Shown piece by piece: positions 3,948 through 62,826 of a stretch of 64,000 nt of DNA. The stretch lies in NCBI RefSeq assembly GCF_900143235.1, contig NZ_FRDF01000001.1, positions 124,001 through 188,000 of the forward strand, given 5' to 3'. A program made the position numbers and the translations under genes. Within the stretch, counting starts at the first letter, position 1, and the number at the start of each line of letters is the position of its first letter. The notes below the pieces were generated by a model. It had not been told where the DNA came from and did not search any database. It worked only from the letters and a program-made list of their open reading frames with translations. The DNA comes from Erythrobacter sanguineus. GTDB lineage: Bacteria > Pseudomonadota > Alphaproteobacteria > Sphingomonadales > Sphingomonadaceae.

Positions 3948-4556
3948 TCAGGCCTCCCACGGCCCCAGCATCCCTTCGGCCGGCATGGCCGCCAGCGCCG
4001 CGCCGCGGGCCAGCAAGCGATCAGGTTCATAAGGGCCGGGACAGCGCCAGCCGCCGGTCATGGCGGCGGAAAAGCCCCAGCGCCCGTAATAATCCGCATC
4101 CCCGATCAGCACCTGCGGCAAGCGCGATTGCCGTACCGCTCCGCTACTTGAGGACGGGCTTCTCTGCCCTACCGCTCCGCTACTTGAGGACGGGATTGCC
4201 CCGCGGCCGTTTGCCGCGAGCCGTGCATCGGCATCGAGCATCGCGCTCATCAATCCCACGCCAAAGCCTTCGCCTTGCCGTTCGGGGACGACCGCAACCG
4301 GCCCGACCATTACCAGCGGCACCTGCCCCTGTTTGGTCTGCAAGGCGATCGGCCAGCACTGGATCGTGCCGACCAGCAGCTCGTCCTCGTCCAGTGCGGC
4401 GAAACTCAAGGTGGGCAGCCACGGCATCCCTTCGCGGATGCGATAGGCCGTGCGCGCGTGGCGATCCGGCCCGAAGGCACGGTCGAGCACCGCCTCGATC
4501 ATGGCGGGATCGACCGCCTCGAGCGGGATCAGCGTGGCAGTGGCGGCGGCGTTCAT
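3948..4556 (-). CDS. GNAT-family N-acetyltransferase interrupted by an in-frame repeat
   Basis: 202 residues, in the YhbS-like GNAT branch. The acetyl-CoA loop is in the VAVVPERQGEGFGVGLM segment (residues about 87-103; RQGEGFG takes the place of the Q/RxxGxG/A motif). The C-terminal strand VLIGDADYYGRWGFS is typical of the branch. Between LAANGR and LPQVLIGD the protein carries two 12-residue repeats, PSSSSGAVGQRS and PSSSSGAVRQSR, which have no place in the fold and come from a 36-bp DNA repeat (see 4122-4193). The insertion lies in the loop before the conserved strand, so activity may be kept. The start ATG overlaps the stop of the sugar-dehydrogenase gene (ATGA). The substrate is unknown. 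Confidence 0.85.
   Translation of the reverse strand: MNAAATATLIPLEAVDPAMIEAVLDRAFGPDRHARTAYRIREGMPWLPTLSFAALDEDELLVGTIQCWPIALQTKQGQVPLVMVGPVAVVPERQGEGFGVGLMSAMLDADARLAANGRGAIPSSSSGAVGQRSPSSSSGAVRQSRLPQVLIGDADYYGRWGFSAAMTGGWRCPGPYEPDRLLARGAALAAMPAEGMLGPWEA
4122..4193 (-). repeat. Two tandem 36-bp units inserted in frame in the GNAT gene
   Basis: Units 4158-4193 and 4122-4157 share CCGTCCTCAAGTAGCGGAGC and the following GGTA, then diverge (GGGCAGAGAAGC versus CGGCAATCGCGC). Because 36 is divisible by three the reading frame is kept, and each unit encodes PSSSSGAV plus four variable residues. The same core CTCAAGTAGCG with the next AGCG occurs twice, 36 bp apart, in the carotenoid oxygenase gene at 52358-52429, in the same orientation relative to the coding strand. 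Confidence 0.85.
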
Positions 4557-27595: not shown

Positions 27596-27838
27596 ATGGA
27601 ACTCCTCGACCGCTTTATGCTCCTCAGTGATGCCGCACAGTTTGCGATTACCGGCGGGCTGTTCTGGGCGTTCGCAGGTTTTGCCGGTGTGATGGAGCGC
27701 CGCCGGATGAAGCGGCGCGATGTTTCCCGGCTCGAACAGGTCGGCTGGGTGCCGTGGCTTGGCCTGTTCATGGCTTGCGCAGTCATCGGCGGCGGGATGC
27801 TGGCGATGAGCCTGCCGGTGGTGCTGGGGAGCCTTTGA
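27596..27838 (+). CDS. Small two-helix membrane protein, hypothetical
   Basis: 80 residues, ATG 27596. Two hydrophobic helices (AAQFAITGGLFWAFAGFAGVM and WLGLFMACAVIGGGMLAMSL) flank a strongly basic cytoplasmic loop, ERRRMKRRDVSRLEQ. The protein ends VVLGSL. I do not recognise a family. The hydrophobic-basic-hydrophobic plan argues that it is a real inner-membrane protein. It lies between the divergent exporter and the palindromic repeat cluster. Confidence 0.65.
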   Translation: MELLDRFMLLSDAAQFAITGGLFWAFAGFAGVMERRRMKRRDVSRLEQVGWVPWLGLFMACAVIGGGMLAMSLPVVLGSL

Positions 27839-27850
27839 GTTTCGTGCTCC

Positions 27851-28079
27851 TGCCTCGTCAGAGGCAGGCCTCAAAAACGAACCCGCAGGGTTCGCAAGGC
27901 CGGAGTCGAAGCCGAAGGCGCAGACGTGCGAAGCACACCTGCAGGGCCGCCGGCCGGTTAGGCCGATCCCGTCTGCCTCGTCAGAGGCAGGCCTCCAGAA
28001 CGAACCCGCAGGGTTCGCAAGGCCGACTGGCCGCCGGCCGGTTAGGCCGATCCCGTCTGCCTCGTCAGAGGCAGGCCTC
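27851..28079. repeat. Cluster of palindromic repeat units at the 3' end of cpaF
   Basis: TGCCTCGTCAGAGGCAGGCC plus TC occurs at 27851-27872, 27974-27995 and 28058-28079. After the first two copies comes GAACCCGCAGGGTTC (6-bp hairpin arms) and then GCCGCCGGCCGGTTAGGCCG with CCCGTC. The first unit has about 39 extra bases, so spacing is 123 and 84 bp. Each unit can fold into three small hairpins (TGCCTC/GAGGCA, GAACCC/GGGTTC, CGGCC/GGCCG). The third copy contains the cpaF stop codon (28065-28067). It is a BIME-like array; it lacks the regular spacer-repeat form of CRISPR. Confidence 0.8.
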
Positions 28080-29600
28080 AAGATACGCCTGATCAAACCC
28101 GAATTGCCGGGCCTTTTCGAGCGTGTAGGGGCGCAGACCCGATGAGCGGAATTCGCCGAGGATCTTGCCGTCTTCGCTCTCGTCCAGATATTCGAACTTG
28201 AACAATTCCTGCGTCACGATCACGTCGCCTTCCATCCCGATCACCTCGGTGATGTTGGTGGTGCGGCGCGAACCATCGCGCAGACGCTTGACCTGCACGA
28301 TCAGATCGACCGATTCGGCGATCTGGCGGCTGATGGCTTCCTTGGGGATCTTGATGTCGCCCATCAGGATCATGTTTTCCATACGGCCAAGGCATTCGCG
28401 CGGGGAGTTGGCGTGGAGCGTACACATCGACCCATCGTGACCGGTGTTCATCGCGGCCAGAAGGTCGAAACATTCCGCGCCGCGAATTTCGCCCAGGATG
28501 ATGCGGTCAGGACGCATACGCAGGGCGTTCTTCACAAGGTCGCCGATGGTGATCGCGCCTTGCCCTTCAAGGTTCGGCGGGCGGGTTTCGAGCGGCAGCC
28601 AGTGCGGCTGTTGCAGGCGAAGTTCCGCCGCGTCTTCGATGGTCAGCACGCGCTCACCCGGGTCGATCATCTTCGACAGGGCGTTGAGCATGGTGGTTTT
28701 ACCCGAACCCGTACCGCCCGAAATGACGACATTCATCCGGCATGCGCCTGCGATCTTCAGCGCGGTGCACATCTTGTCCGACATCGACCCGAAATCGCGC
28801 AGCATGTCGAGCGTGATGGGCTTTTCGGAAAACTTACGAATCGAGATCGCGGTGCCGCGCAGCGACAGCGGCGGGACGATCACGTTCACACGCGAACCGT
28901 CCTTCAAGCGGGCGTCGGCCAGCGGCGTGGTCTGGTCGACGCGGCGGCCGACCTGGTTTACGATCCGCTGGGCGATCTGGAACAGGTGCTGTTCGTCGCG
29001 GAAGCGGATCGGGGCGAGGGTCAGCTTGCCCTTCTTTTCGATGTAGGTCTGATCCGGGCCGTTGACCATGATATCGGACACGTCGGGATCGTTGAGCAAT
29101 TCTTCGAGCGGGCCGAAGCCGAGCAACTCGTCGATCAGCACCTTTTCCAGCGCGAATTGTTCGCGCCGGTTCAATGTGACCTTCAGTTCGGCCAGCACTT
29201 CCATGATGATCGGGCGGAATTCCTCGGAGAGTTCCTCCTTGGACAGCGTTGCCGCCGCTTCGGGATCGACCCGTTCGAGCAGGCGCGGCAGCACCTGTTC
29301 CTTGATCTTGTGGACGCTCGCTTCGAACCCGCCGACTTCGGAATTGCCGTCGTTGACCGAGGCCATGCGCTCGTTCAGACGGTCGATCGCCTCGGCACTT
29401 GTGGTCGGACGGCTTGGGGCGGGTGATGGGACCGGTGCGGCTTTGGCCGGCTCGCCCGGGATCGGCGGAAACTGCTCCCCACCGCGCTGACCGCCGGACG
29501 AGGCGCTGCCAGCCCCCTTCATCGGCCTTGCGACCCCGAAGGCTGGCCTGCTGCCGGGCTTCATTCCGCCAGCATTGCCCTTTTTGCCGAATGCGCTCAT
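28065..29600 (-). CDS. cpaF: CpaF-type pilus/secretion ATPase
   Basis: 511 residues. It is a hexameric ATPase of the tight-adherence (Flp pilus) type II/IV secretion family that powers pilus assembly on the cytoplasmic face. A disordered Gly/Pro-rich N terminus (about 90 residues) is followed by the three-helix N-terminal domain and the ATPase core: Walker A SGGTGSGKTTML, the Asp box LTIEDAAELRL, Walker B region MRPDRIILGEIRGAE and the His box. The last codons, EACL plus stop, lie in a palindromic repeat. No other cpa/tad gene is adjacent, which is unusual for this family. Confidence 0.9.
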   Translation of the reverse strand: MSAFGKKGNAGGMKPGSRPAFGVARPMKGAGSASSGGQRGGEQFPPIPGEPAKAAPVPSPAPSRPTTSAEAIDRLNERMASVNDGNSEVGGFEASVHKIKEQVLPRLLERVDPEAAATLSKEELSEEFRPIIMEVLAELKVTLNRREQFALEKVLIDELLGFGPLEELLNDPDVSDIMVNGPDQTYIEKKGKLTLAPIRFRDEQHLFQIAQRIVNQVGRRVDQTTPLADARLKDGSRVNVIVPPLSLRGTAISIRKFSEKPITLDMLRDFGSMSDKMCTALKIAGACRMNVVISGGTGSGKTTMLNALSKMIDPGERVLTIEDAAELRLQQPHWLPLETRPPNLEGQGAITIGDLVKNALRMRPDRIILGEIRGAECFDLLAAMNTGHDGSMCTLHANSPRECLGRMENMILMGDIKIPKEAISRQIAESVDLIVQVKRLRDGSRRTTNITEVIGMEGDVIVTQELFKFEYLDESEDGKILGEFRSSGLRPYTLEKARQFGFDQAYLEACL

Positions 29601-52132: not shown

Positions 52133-53701
52133 TCAGCGGCTGGCGACAGCCTGCAATCCTTGCGCATGGAAGGCTGCATCGCTGCGCAATTGATCATGTT
52201 CGACCCACACCGAATGCGTGCCCGAACAGATCTTGTGCGGCAGGGCGAGGCGGCAGATCGGGCCTTTGGTCACGTCACTGGCATCAAGGATCGCGCATTG
52301 CGACGTGCCGGTGTTCTCGTCGATCAGGAAGGTGACGAGGTAGCCGGAGTCTTCCGAGGGTCCTTGTCGCCCTGTCGCTTCGCTACTTGAGGGAGTCTTT
52401 TGTTGCCCTATCGCTTCGCTACTTGAGGGCTTGCGCGGGATCATCGGGCTTTCGCTGGCGTAGACGCCTTCGGGCAGGCGGTAGACCTGTTCCTCGCCGG
52501 TTTCGGTATCGTGGCGGACATAGCCGTTGAACAGGAACCAGCCGGGCCGGGTGGTGGTCGACCAGACATAGCGGCTTTTGGTCATCGCATAACGCGGGTT
52601 GATCATCCCGAATTCGACGATGCAGTCCGACAGGCGCTCCTCACGGGTCTCGCCCGTCTTCAGGTTGAAGCGCCAGCGGTGCAGGCGCGACTGGAAGCTG
52701 TGTTCATCGACATAGGCCATCATGTGGCTGTACCGGCCCATTTCCTCCAGCGGATCGGGCATGGGCTTGGCCTGATGGTATCCTTCGAGCACCACCTCGT
52801 CGCCGTCCTCATACGCATTGGTCCAGTGCAGCACATAGGTGGGCGAAGCCTCGAACCAGCGGATATCTTCGGGCTGGCCATGGCGCGGAATCAGCGCAAA
52901 ACGGGTCGGCACGCCCTGATGCAGCCGCGCGGCGTGGATGTTGCTGTCCAGCAGATCCTTGTCCCAGTACAATGGCATGTCGTTGAGGATCGACCAGTTT
53001 TTGGTGATCGCCATGTCATGCGGCAGGCGCGGGCCGGGCAGCGGGACGGGGACGTAATGCACCAGCCGCCCGGTGCGATCGACCACGCCATAATGCATGA
53101 ACGGGGCGTATTTGGAGTAGTTGAAGAACATCATCTCTCCGGTCGCCTCGTCCACCTTGGGGTGGGCGGAGATACCATCCAGCGGCACCCACGGCGCCTT
53201 GCCCCGGCTGGCAAGCGTCACCGGGTCGAGCATCCACGCCTCGCCGCACTGGTACAGCGTGGCATAGGCCGTGCCGGCATGGACGATGATGTCGGTGCTG
53301 CCGGTGTCCTTCAGCCCGCCATGCGCGCCAAAGCCGGGGCGTTTGCTCGTCCCTGCCGGGTCCATCAGCCCGCCCCACAGCGACTGACCCGCAATCTGTT
53401 CCGCCTCGAAGCAATGCGTGCGCACAAAGCGGTTGCGATAGCTCGCCTTGCCGCCGGAGATGTTGACCTGATGGATCATCGCATCGCCATCAAAAGGATG
53501 GTGCCGGCCCAGCGGCTGATGCACCTGATTTTCGGTGTTGCGCAGGTAGATGCCGTCGATATCGACCGGGATCGCCCCTTCGATCACCTCCAGCTCGGCA
53601 ACGTCGACCTCCTCGTGCAGCGGTGTCCACGCACCTGTAAGATAGGGGTGGTTGGACGGTTCCAGCGTGGTTTTCACCGGCGGATGGCGCGTGATCTGCA
53701 T
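52133..53701 (-). CDS. Carotenoid oxygenase with in-frame 36-bp repeat insert
   Basis: 522 residues from ATG 53701. A seven-bladed propeller non-haem iron dioxygenase that cleaves carotenoid or related alkene bonds. The four iron-binding His lie in ISAHPKVDE, LPHDMAIT, VLHWTNAYEDGD and CSGTHSVWV. YLRNTENQVHQPLGRHHPFDGDAMIH is the N-terminal signature. After ESPMIPRK and before SEDSGYLVTFL come two 12-residue repeats, PSSSEAIGQQKT and PSSSEATGRQGP, which are not part of the family fold and match the insert in the GNAT gene. The insert lies in a loop before the last His, so activity may survive. Divergent from the stress protein. Confidence 0.9.
   Translation of the reverse strand: MQITRHPPVKTTLEPSNHPYLTGAWTPLHEEVDVAELEVIEGAIPVDIDGIYLRNTENQVHQPLGRHHPFDGDAMIHQVNISGGKASYRNRFVRTHCFEAEQIAGQSLWGGLMDPAGTSKRPGFGAHGGLKDTGSTDIIVHAGTAYATLYQCGEAWMLDPVTLASRGKAPWVPLDGISAHPKVDEATGEMMFFNYSKYAPFMHYGVVDRTGRLVHYVPVPLPGPRLPHDMAITKNWSILNDMPLYWDKDLLDSNIHAARLHQGVPTRFALIPRHGQPEDIRWFEASPTYVLHWTNAYEDGDEVVLEGYHQAKPMPDPLEEMGRYSHMMAYVDEHSFQSRLHRWRFNLKTGETREERLSDCIVEFGMINPRYAMTKSRYVWSTTTRPGWFLFNGYVRHDTETGEEQVYRLPEGVYASESPMIPRKPSSSEAIGQQKTPSSSEATGRQGPSEDSGYLVTFLIDENTGTSQCAILDASDVTKGPICRLALPHKICSGTHSVWVEHDQLRSDAAFHAQGLQAVASR
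52358..52429 (-). repeat. Two tandem 36-bp units inserted in frame in the carotenoid oxygenase gene
   Basis: Units 52394-52429 and 52358-52393 both begin CCCTCAAGTAGCGAAGCGA and continue with TAGGGCAACAAAAGACT or CAGGGCGACAAGGACCC. Length 36 keeps the frame. They share the core CTCAAGTAGCG plus AGCG with the units in the GNAT gene, in the same orientation and in the same reading frame relative to the repeat. Confidence 0.85.
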
Positions 53702-53767
53702 GGGTTCCTCTCTCTCGGGAACAGGATGAACCGGGCACGCGCAGTCTGCAAGCTGTGCGTTGCAAAT

Positions 53768-53781
53768 TTGATCCCGATCAA
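53768..53781 (+). promoter_or_regulatory. FNR/Anr/FixK box upstream of the universal stress protein
   Basis: TTGATCCCGATCAA is an exact match to the FNR-family consensus TTGAT-N4-ATCAA. It ends 52 bases before the stress-protein ATG. A class II position near -41 would place transcription about 20 bases before the ATG. It also lies 67 bases upstream of the divergent carotenoid oxygenase start, so it could affect both genes. Confidence 0.75.
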
Positions 53782-53833
53782 GGCGGCGTGCATCATGAAG
53801 GCGCATTTCAGGGTCATTATCGGGAGAACAGCC

Positions 53834-54649
53834 ATGAAATCGATTCTGCTTCATATTGATCACGACCGCGCGATGGACGCCCGTTTGCAGGTCGCGCTCG
53901 ACATTGCGCGGGCCACCAATGGCCACATCACCTGCGTTCAGGCGGTCAGTTATGAGGTCTTTGCGCCCGGCGATTTCTACGGTTCGGCAATCGCGGCGGC
54001 GATGCCGGTGATCAAGGAAAACGCGGAAAAGCTGCGCGCCGATATCGAGGCTGAAATCAGCAATGAAGGGGTGAGCTGGAATTGGCGGTTCCTGTATGGC
54101 ATCGCCCAGCACCGGCTGCTGGAACATTCCGCGCTGGCCGATGTCGTGATCGTCGGCCCGTCGGACCCGGGCGAGGACGGGCGCGGGCCTTCGGCGCTGG
54201 TCGGTGATCTCGTGCTCAAGGCGCCGGTGCCGGTGCTGGTGGTGCCGGAGGATACCAAAAGCTTCGATGCCAATGCGCCGGTCATGGTGGCATGGAACGG
54301 GTCTTCGGAAGCCTGCGTTGCCCTGCGTGCGGCGGTGCCGCTGCTGGCGGCGGCGAGCAAGGTCTATCTGGTCAGCGTGGCCGAACCATCGGACAGGCAG
54401 CGCTTTGATTTTCCCGTGCTGGAGGGGGCGCAATATCTCAGCCGCCACGGGATCGAATGCGAGGTGGTGGAAATCCCGCGCGGGGAGGCGAAGATTTCCG
54501 ACACGCTGTTTTCCGCCGCCCAGCTGCGCGATTGCGGGCTGATGGTGATGGGCGCCTATGGCCATTCGCGGCTGGCGGAAATGCTGCTGGGCGGGGTCAC
54601 GCGGCGGATGTTGCGCGATCCGCAGATGCCGATCCTGCTGGCGCATTGA
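53834..54649 (+). CDS. Tandem universal stress protein
   Basis: 271 residues from ATG 53834 with GGGAGA upstream. Two UspA-fold halves: residues 1-140 (LHIDHDRAMDARLQVALDIARATNGHITCVQAV... SALADVVIVGPSD) and 145-271. The second carries the ATP-loop-like GAYGHSRLAEMLLGG. Two-domain USPs help survival in starvation or low oxygen; the perfect FNR-type box upstream supports oxygen-responsive expression. Cytoplasmic. It converges on tesB. Confidence 0.9.
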   Translation: MKSILLHIDHDRAMDARLQVALDIARATNGHITCVQAVSYEVFAPGDFYGSAIAAAMPVIKENAEKLRADIEAEISNEGVSWNWRFLYGIAQHRLLEHSALADVVIVGPSDPGEDGRGPSALVGDLVLKAPVPVLVVPEDTKSFDANAPVMVAWNGSSEACVALRAAVPLLAAASKVYLVSVAEPSDRQRFDFPVLEGAQYLSRHGIECEVVEIPRGEAKISDTLFSAAQLRDCGLMVMGAYGHSRLAEMLLGGVTRRMLRDPQMPILLAH

Positions 54650-62688: not shown

Positions 62689-62826
62689 TTCGCGCCAAGC
62701 CGCCAAGGGCCGCCAAAATGAAGCACTTGCGGCAAAGCCGCGCATCTCGGTGATCCCTGCGCCACAAAGACCAAGGCCTGCGGCACAGGATCGCCCTCTT
62801 GGCGGCGCTTGGCGGCTTGGCGCGAA
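62689..62826. repeat. 138-bp inverted-repeat element
   Basis: The left arm 62689-62716 and the right arm 62799-62826 are 28 bases long and complementary except at one position. They are built from CCAAGCCGCCAA and GCCGCCAA blocks. The 82-base centre holds a small GCGGC-AAA-GCCGC hairpin and no coding potential. It lies between two converging genes. It resembles REP/MITE-type elements; the whole unit could fold into one long stem. Confidence 0.85.

Follow-up and report, generated by a model that had tools for sequence, protein, structure and literature searches.

The described repeats nearest to the element analysed here are the CGTC-tagged REPs, which, as set out in excerpts of PMC3733652, comprise CGTC-1 to CGTC-4, RPE-4 and RPE-6 of Rickettsia, and dRS3 of Neisseria. 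According to those excerpts they lack a transposase, are mostly alphaproteobacterial and partly intragenic, and are nested in palindromes in one species (PMC3733652). Their hallmarks are an unpaired terminal CGTC (or TGTC/CCTC) and an 8–9 bp stem that opens with AT and ends in a loop of 4–5 nt (PMC3733652). Dimers of CGTC REPs are predominantly head-to-head, with a negligible share arranged head-to-tail, and head-to-tail dimers of REPs are described in the same excerpts as absent or rare (PMC3733652). Intragenic REPs of an Erythrobacter are placed there in a tRNA synthetase and a tRNA pseudouridine synthase (PMC3733652). Rickettsia palindromic elements, for which our comparison draws on excerpts of PMC10969869 and PMC2635572, measure about 150 bp (PMC10969869).

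We describe a repeat, the CTCAAG hairpin element, that is probably a hairpin-forming, interspersed and non-autonomous unit of about 36 nt (34–36 nt per unit), and that is best classed among short palindromic repeats of the REP/RPE kind. The finding of the initial annotation holds up, and its extent is greater than described there: what was noted in two genes is a widespread minimal hairpin element.

Two host genes in the window

The initial annotation described a 36-bp unit inserted twice in tandem, in the same orientation and phase, in two unrelated genes. The tandem pairs are indeed present on the minus strand of a GNAT and a carotenoid oxygenase gene, with 36-bp spacing, one shared phase and the core CTCAAGTAGCGRAGCG, and the hosts match PF13527 (acetyltransferase) and PF03055 (carotenoid oxygenase, RPE65 family), respectively. 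Across the window, by which we mean the whole 64-kb stretch of Erythrobacter sanguineus DNA that was analysed, an exact 16-mer from the core occurs 4 times, every time inside one of these two genes; shuffled windows (n = 100) gave a mean of 1.09 matches with 3 mismatches permitted. The features are as follows.

3948..4556, minus strand: GNAT acetyltransferase gene, host of two copies (open reading frame; PF13527, E 7.3e-6)
4123..4197, minus strand: 75-bp insert of the GNAT gene relative to empty orthologues, boundaries ± about 2 bp (30-locus alignment)
4169..4188, minus strand: core of GNAT copy 1; 5' arm GTC at 4189–4191 and 3' arm GGC at 4166–4168, pairing at 2 of 3 positions
4133..4152, minus strand: core of GNAT copy 2, final base changed to C
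52133..54646, minus strand: 837-aa open frame with the carotenoid oxygenase (open reading frame and Pfam)
52358..52429, minus strand: two-unit insert of the oxygenase (alignment of 31 distinct loci)
52408..52427, minus strand: core of oxygenase copy 1; arms GCC and GGC, perfectly paired
52372..52391, minus strand: core of oxygenase copy 2, ending in GACAG; arms TCC and GGC

The annotation had also held that only the phase encoding PSSS stays open on the coding strand. This holds for copy 1 of each tandem (the 5' copy in the gene), which has stops in two forward phases, and fails for copy 2, which has a stop in a single forward phase. In each of the four copies, two of three reverse phases contain no stop.

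The RPE65 domain match spans residues 341–815 of the 837-aa frame (about 52202–53626), and the loop that carries the insert lies ahead of an EDxGYL stretch, which can be aligned to solved relatives. Because the two units add a net 63 bp to the common empty site, a few host bases must also have been replaced. The oxygenase frame (52133–54646, minus strand) continues upstream into a further frame of some 300 residues; the two are matched separately or split by a stop in most genomes of the genus, and one other genome (G026) resembles that of E. sanguineus in having no stop codons between them. Elsewhere the window contains a 55-bp direct repeat in three copies (27822–28083; two 98% alike, one 62%; spacing 123 and 84 bp) and an inverted repeat with 28-nt arms that are 96% complementary and 82 nt apart (62689–62826).

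Orthologous sites without the insert residues are common, and the universal presence that would have spoken against a mobile repeat was not found. GNAT orthologues are present in 59 of 61 genomes of the genus; at the insertion site, 28 of 30 loci are empty and 2 are filled, in E. sanguineus and in G017. The oxygenase site is filled in 13 of 31 distinct loci with one to three units (one of them degenerate) and empty in 16, while the remaining 2 differ by a short unrelated stretch and have no element. All filled oxygenases carry it in one common loop, and the 12 clear ones read it in one frame, three of these frames being deduced by reading the aligned DNA. At a third site, a gene junction alignable in 29 of 30 loci, we found 8 filled loci (one degenerate) and 21 empty ones, including that of E. 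sanguineus. Here a single unit adds 36 bp to the commonest empty length and supplies an apparent in-frame N-terminus, MPSSSEAVGQQG; where there are two units, one may precede the start codon. The comparison of filled and empty states is one between species, and several genomes have the same loop filled; some insertions may accordingly be old and inherited. A clear target-site duplication, as a MITE or a relic of a DDE transposon would leave and as the annotation proposed to look for, was not found at the filled sites inspected by eye, and none was visible by eye at the gene junction or in the host palindrome described below. GGCAATC stands at both ends of the GNAT insert and may be a duplication or element sequence.

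Fold of the element

The element opens with a 3-bp outer arm of variable sequence followed by CT paired with AG, which together form a 5-bp outer stem. Next comes a conserved, asymmetric internal loop, with CAAGYA on one side and GRY opposite, and then an inner stem-loop whose sequence is variable but mostly GC-GAA-GC. The hairpin is followed by an A-rich tail of about 9 nt.

The arms covary. Copies without full flanks and those with repeated flanks were removed before counting. Among the 244 distinct copies, the three pairs flanking the 20-base core have mutual information of 1.15, 0.88 and 0.27 bits, and the next-best value, 0.26 bits, lies between neighbouring positions. A perfect 3-bp arm is present in 196 of these 244 copies, mostly as GTC, GCG, GCC or GGC. 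Without any arm filter the arm is perfect in 294 of 378 copies and in 211 of 244 single copies; the element list behind the gene-placement and Robiginitomaculum counts below required at least two of three arm pairs, and its arm figures are biased accordingly. Copying of the arms from the target was considered and then abandoned, as four triplets account for 170 of the 196 perfect arms.

In an alignment of 57 copies, 95.5% of cells pair, and the covariation is 0.345, against 0.139 when shuffled and at most 0.130 when slid. Two-sided pair changes numbered 3 in this alignment and 2.9 in shuffles, which is not above the control (472/500), and none of its inner pairs is altered on both sides, so that the covariation concerns the outer arms only. 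Covariation inside the element is weak, the Y7–R17 pair being T-G in 202, T-A in 121, C-G in 42 and C-A in 13 of 378 copies. Inner-stem variants are still paired (GC-GAA-GC, GCC-GCTA-GGC, GCGC-GAA-GCGC, GCC-GAA-GGC and others) in a search that itself demanded two inner pairs. A relaxed pattern gave 400 hits in loci mostly chosen for the presence of the core, and 0 in the same loci reversed. The folding energies of the bare hairpin are unremarkable (z from -0.3 to -2.1).

Two sets of loci depart from this layout. L340–L344 have longer inner stems, which reach about 9 pairs and contain a GA/GA mismatch. In L114, L141, L140, L171 and L336 the arms reach 9–12 bp and the A-rich tail is not clear, as if the bare core lay in the loop of a terminator-like palindrome.

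Neighbouring copies less than 150 bp apart are arranged head-to-tail in 110 cases and inverted in 9. In 45 of 81 cases neighbours share the same 5' arm, against 18% expected.

Dispersal and placement

The core is common in related genomes, and the absence that would have undone the mobile-repeat reading was not found. The E. sanguineus genome (2.98 Mb, 25 contigs) contains the exact 16-mer in 8 copies, spread over 5 loci, and matches it at 14 sites when up to one mismatch is allowed, against 1 for a reversed-pattern control. A covariance model made from the 57 aligned copies, with 150 of 1,848 candidates scored, returned at least 25 matches at E up to 0.1 and at least 20 at E < 1e-5; in three model matches on contig C18 the core was not seen at the places inspected. 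Taken together, this genome holds about 20–25 copies. The exact core is present in 46 of 61 genomes of the genus (0 to 14 copies; 1 match overall in the reversed control) and in 33 of 199 genomes of the family (3 matches in the control), and, of 385 genomes of the class, 22 gave a match to the covariance model.

Among the matches listed, the core was found in Erythrobacter, Porphyrobacter, Qipengyuania, Croceibacterium, Parvularcula, Robiginitomaculum, several Rhodobacteraceae, Brevundimonas, Methyloceanibacter and actinobacterial MAGs. Two Robiginitomaculum MAGs contain 72 and 68 copies of the exact 20-mer. The four actinobacterial MAGs bearing the exact core comprise two Euzebyaceae, with 20 copies on 15 contigs and 14 on 13, and two Nitriliruptorales, with 7 copies on 4 contigs and 4 on 2; copies on so many different contigs are hard to ascribe to one contaminant contig, although some contamination of the MAGs may remain. 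Putative viral contigs gave 41 matching stretches, a phage collection partial matches only (E ≥ 2), and plasmids 24 matching records, 8 of which cover at least 80% of the query. In E. coli no match to the element was found. In the viral-contig loci L200, L203, L215, L223, L225, L226 and L230, copies lie in or near terminase-type genes, and L223 and L230 have an in-frame copy at the N-terminus.

In 789 kb of a Robiginitomaculum MAG there are 55 relaxed copies in 28 arrays (0 in the reversed sequence). Its intergenic arrays favour gaps between convergent genes (14 of 23, where 55 of all 398 gaps are convergent; p 7e-7), the others being 8 antisense, 1 sense and 0 divergent, and this placement is not random. 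Of 42 right halves of a host palindrome located there by pattern, 27 have the element or a degenerate copy in the loop and 15 are bare; by eye, the element is visible in the loop in 20 of 23 stretches inspected. The element may spread in this MAG along with its host palindrome. In G642 (L422–L461) the interspersed palindrome, GCATTTTT...AAAAATGC, is a separate repeat family and carries most of the arrays there.

Placement relative to genes was assessed for 225 first-of-array copies in loci above 55% G+C, using a simple codon-usage gene caller; the set omits later array members, loci below 55% G+C and L241–L300, and 21 of the 225 copies lie at locus edges. Inside genes there are 46 copies, 43 sense and 3 antisense. 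The SSSEAVG frame accounts for 37 of the 43 sense copies, with 5 in the second frame and 1 in the third; these in-gene counts include orthologous, non-independent sites (the oxygenase contributes 4 of the 37). Among the 5 second-frame copies, 4 host frames terminate at the element itself, whose TAG is the stop. A second-frame copy is also present in an E. sanguineus CN_hydrolase protein, as a variant with a longer inner stem. Since stop-free phases alone predict twice as many antisense as sense copies in genes and the sense strand is what is seen, the simplest reading is that the bias reflects selection for a hydrophilic peptide.

The annotation's question whether other proteins carry the repeat-encoded peptide is answered by these 37 copies, which fall in about 25 kinds of protein, counting GNAT, the oxygenase and UvrB, the last of which has one copy close to the C-terminus in E. 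sanguineus. We ran Pfam on 28 of the 36 listed in-frame hosts, one of the 37 (below 300 nt) being omitted; 3 of the 28 had no match. The matches include PheS (3 loci), a TyrRS, GlyQ, MnmG, MutL, an Mfd-like protein, PutA (2 loci), an MgsA-type ATPase, a histidine kinase, a citrate-type transporter, a hydantoinase and two kinds of phage terminase.

Outside genes, the mixed set shows no strand preference: copies between co-directional genes are 58 sense and 49 antisense (p 0.44), and a further 29 lie between convergent and 22 between divergent genes. Tight co-directional junctions favour the sense strand (17 of 58 against 5 of 49; p 0.017). In nine selected Rhodobacteraceae rRNA loci (L083, L084, L087, L098, L117, L129, L146, L160 and L187), 10 copies lie in the 23S gene, adjoining it or before 16S; all 10 are on the sense strand, in operons that are related and not independent. 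In L038, L040, L056 and L076 the element, with different arms, ends about 10 nt upstream of a start codon, and the gene downstream looks like one small gene in four genomes. The element may serve as a translation leader of that gene in the four genomes.

Mechanism and relation to known repeats

With dispersal, covarying arms, filled and empty sites, head-to-tail arrays and frame filtering established, the observations are best explained, with good probability, by a dispersed hairpin element that is locally amplified in tandem and filtered by frame within genes. The annotation had left open whether the repeat was mobile or amplified by slippage; the data are compatible with dispersal in the past and also with tandem growth of a slippage-like kind. 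We hypothesize that the folded single strand would be recognised by a trans-acting recombinase or a repair process and copied to new sites, and that neighbouring copies would then arise through tandem duplication, given that neighbours often have the same arms. Within genes, selection would retain those insertions whose open frame is read as a hydrophilic SSSEAVG loop, which would place them on the same strand and in the same phase in unrelated genes. It is possible, if somewhat doubtful, that the element forms part of a cross-phylum family of minimal mobile hairpins of about 36 nt, in which an internal loop is conserved between two variable stems, the fold rather than the arm sequence is recognised by an enzyme or repair process of wide distribution, and copies colonise proteins as well as rRNA operons, phages and palindrome loops.

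Candidate mobilisers (Y1 transposase, reverse transcriptase and IS110) were not found in the E. sanguineus genome, and none tracks the element across the 61 genomes of the genus. Reverse transcriptase (PF00078) is found in 15 of the 61, being present in 13 of 46 element-bearing and 2 of 15 element-free genomes, and IS110 (PF01548) in 13, with 11 of 46 and 2 of 15; both were set aside as candidates. When 2,912 reading frames near elements in L073–L240 were clustered, the listed clusters of at least three loci, judged by eye, held frames in rRNA, phage genes and ordinary genes, and no autonomous copy was recognised among them.

The element offers a countable, easily recognised marker for very short DNA entering and being tolerated in coding genes. 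The arm covariation indicates that the folded strand, and not the arm sequence, is under selection, and because the fold is selected without constraint on arm sequence, the mover of transposase-less, REP-like repeats becomes directly testable. For annotation, SSSEAVG stretches in such proteins should be taken as inserted repeats.

Descent as a divergent branch of the CGTC-type REP superfamily, including Rickettsia RPE-4 and RPE-6, is unlikely. CGTC-1 also has a GCGAAGC-like inner part, which counts for such descent. Both are short hairpins of alphaproteobacterial hosts with intragenic units, no associated transposase and, in some families, nesting in palindromes, and intragenic REPs are known from an Erythrobacter (excerpts of PMC3733652). 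However, the element has neither an unpaired terminal CGTC, since in the 43 of 378 copies with CGTC directly 5' of the core the GTC forms the paired arm, nor an 8–9 bp stem opening with AT; it has instead three variable, GC-rich arm pairs plus CT/AG, a conserved internal loop and an inner stem. Its tail is A-rich rather than CCA-like, and its 110 head-to-tail and 9 inverted neighbours contrast with head-to-head dimers. Among 461 loci, a CGTC-like sequence turned up in 1, where it is an element of its own.

A hairpin with a function in RNA, for example one that binds a protein or marks a processing site, selected in the transcript and multiplied for its usefulness, would agree with the frequent wobble pairs inside the element, its sense orientation in 9 of 9 selected Rhodobacteraceae rRNA loci, its position just ahead of the start codon of one small gene in each of four genomes, and its convergent and 3'-end placement in one MAG. 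We regard this as distinctly improbable, as the strands are divided 58:49 between co-directional genes in the mixed set, many unrelated proteins carry in-frame copies, orthologous sites show gain and loss, and the rRNA loci represent related, non-independent operons.

The idea that a RAYT (Y1 transposase) moves the element in trans, as a GTAG REP, draws on a hairpin with GTAG motifs and on its TAG, which supplies the stop codon in 4 copies, as GTAG REPs do for flanking genes in the excerpts of PMC3733652. Yet GTAG lies inside the stem on both sides and is not terminal, and the element does not co-occur with Y1 transposase genes: PF01797 is found in 4 of 61 genomes of the genus, E. sanguineus not among them (3 of 46 bearing, 1 of 15 free), and the exact core is missing from the genome with 6 matches. 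No element-flanked gene was recognised among the listed frame clusters of L073–L240. RAYT mobilisation in this genus is thus largely refuted, and the GTAG REP reading as a whole is very hard to sustain. The tandem arrangement would suit ancestral residues or a coding repeat local to the GNAT and oxygenase genes, but this reading is refuted, and left with practically no standing, by the mostly empty orthologues and by the same core in intergenic DNA and unrelated genes.

For a dispersed, folded and frame-filtered hairpin, attC sites and the ends of IS200/IS605 elements may serve as an analogy; in both, what is recognised is a single strand folded into variable stems with extrahelical bases, although we found no transposase link for the element. 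A scan of 11 loci with Rfam covariance models (E up to 5) gave no match overlapping the element, and no title or abstract among the listed matches of the open-licence literature describes the core sequence, the peptide or the element. The likeness to Rickettsia palindromic elements suggested initially stands for behaviour, namely in-frame insertion into unrelated proteins, and falls for size (about 36 bp against about 150 bp), sequence and hosts (excerpts of PMC10969869 and PMC2635572). The tested defining features of REPs and of Rickettsia palindromic elements are largely lacking in the element. CGTC-tagged REPs are the nearest kind, and, given the PheS copies found here, the intragenic Erythrobacter REPs mentioned in PMC3733652 may include this element.
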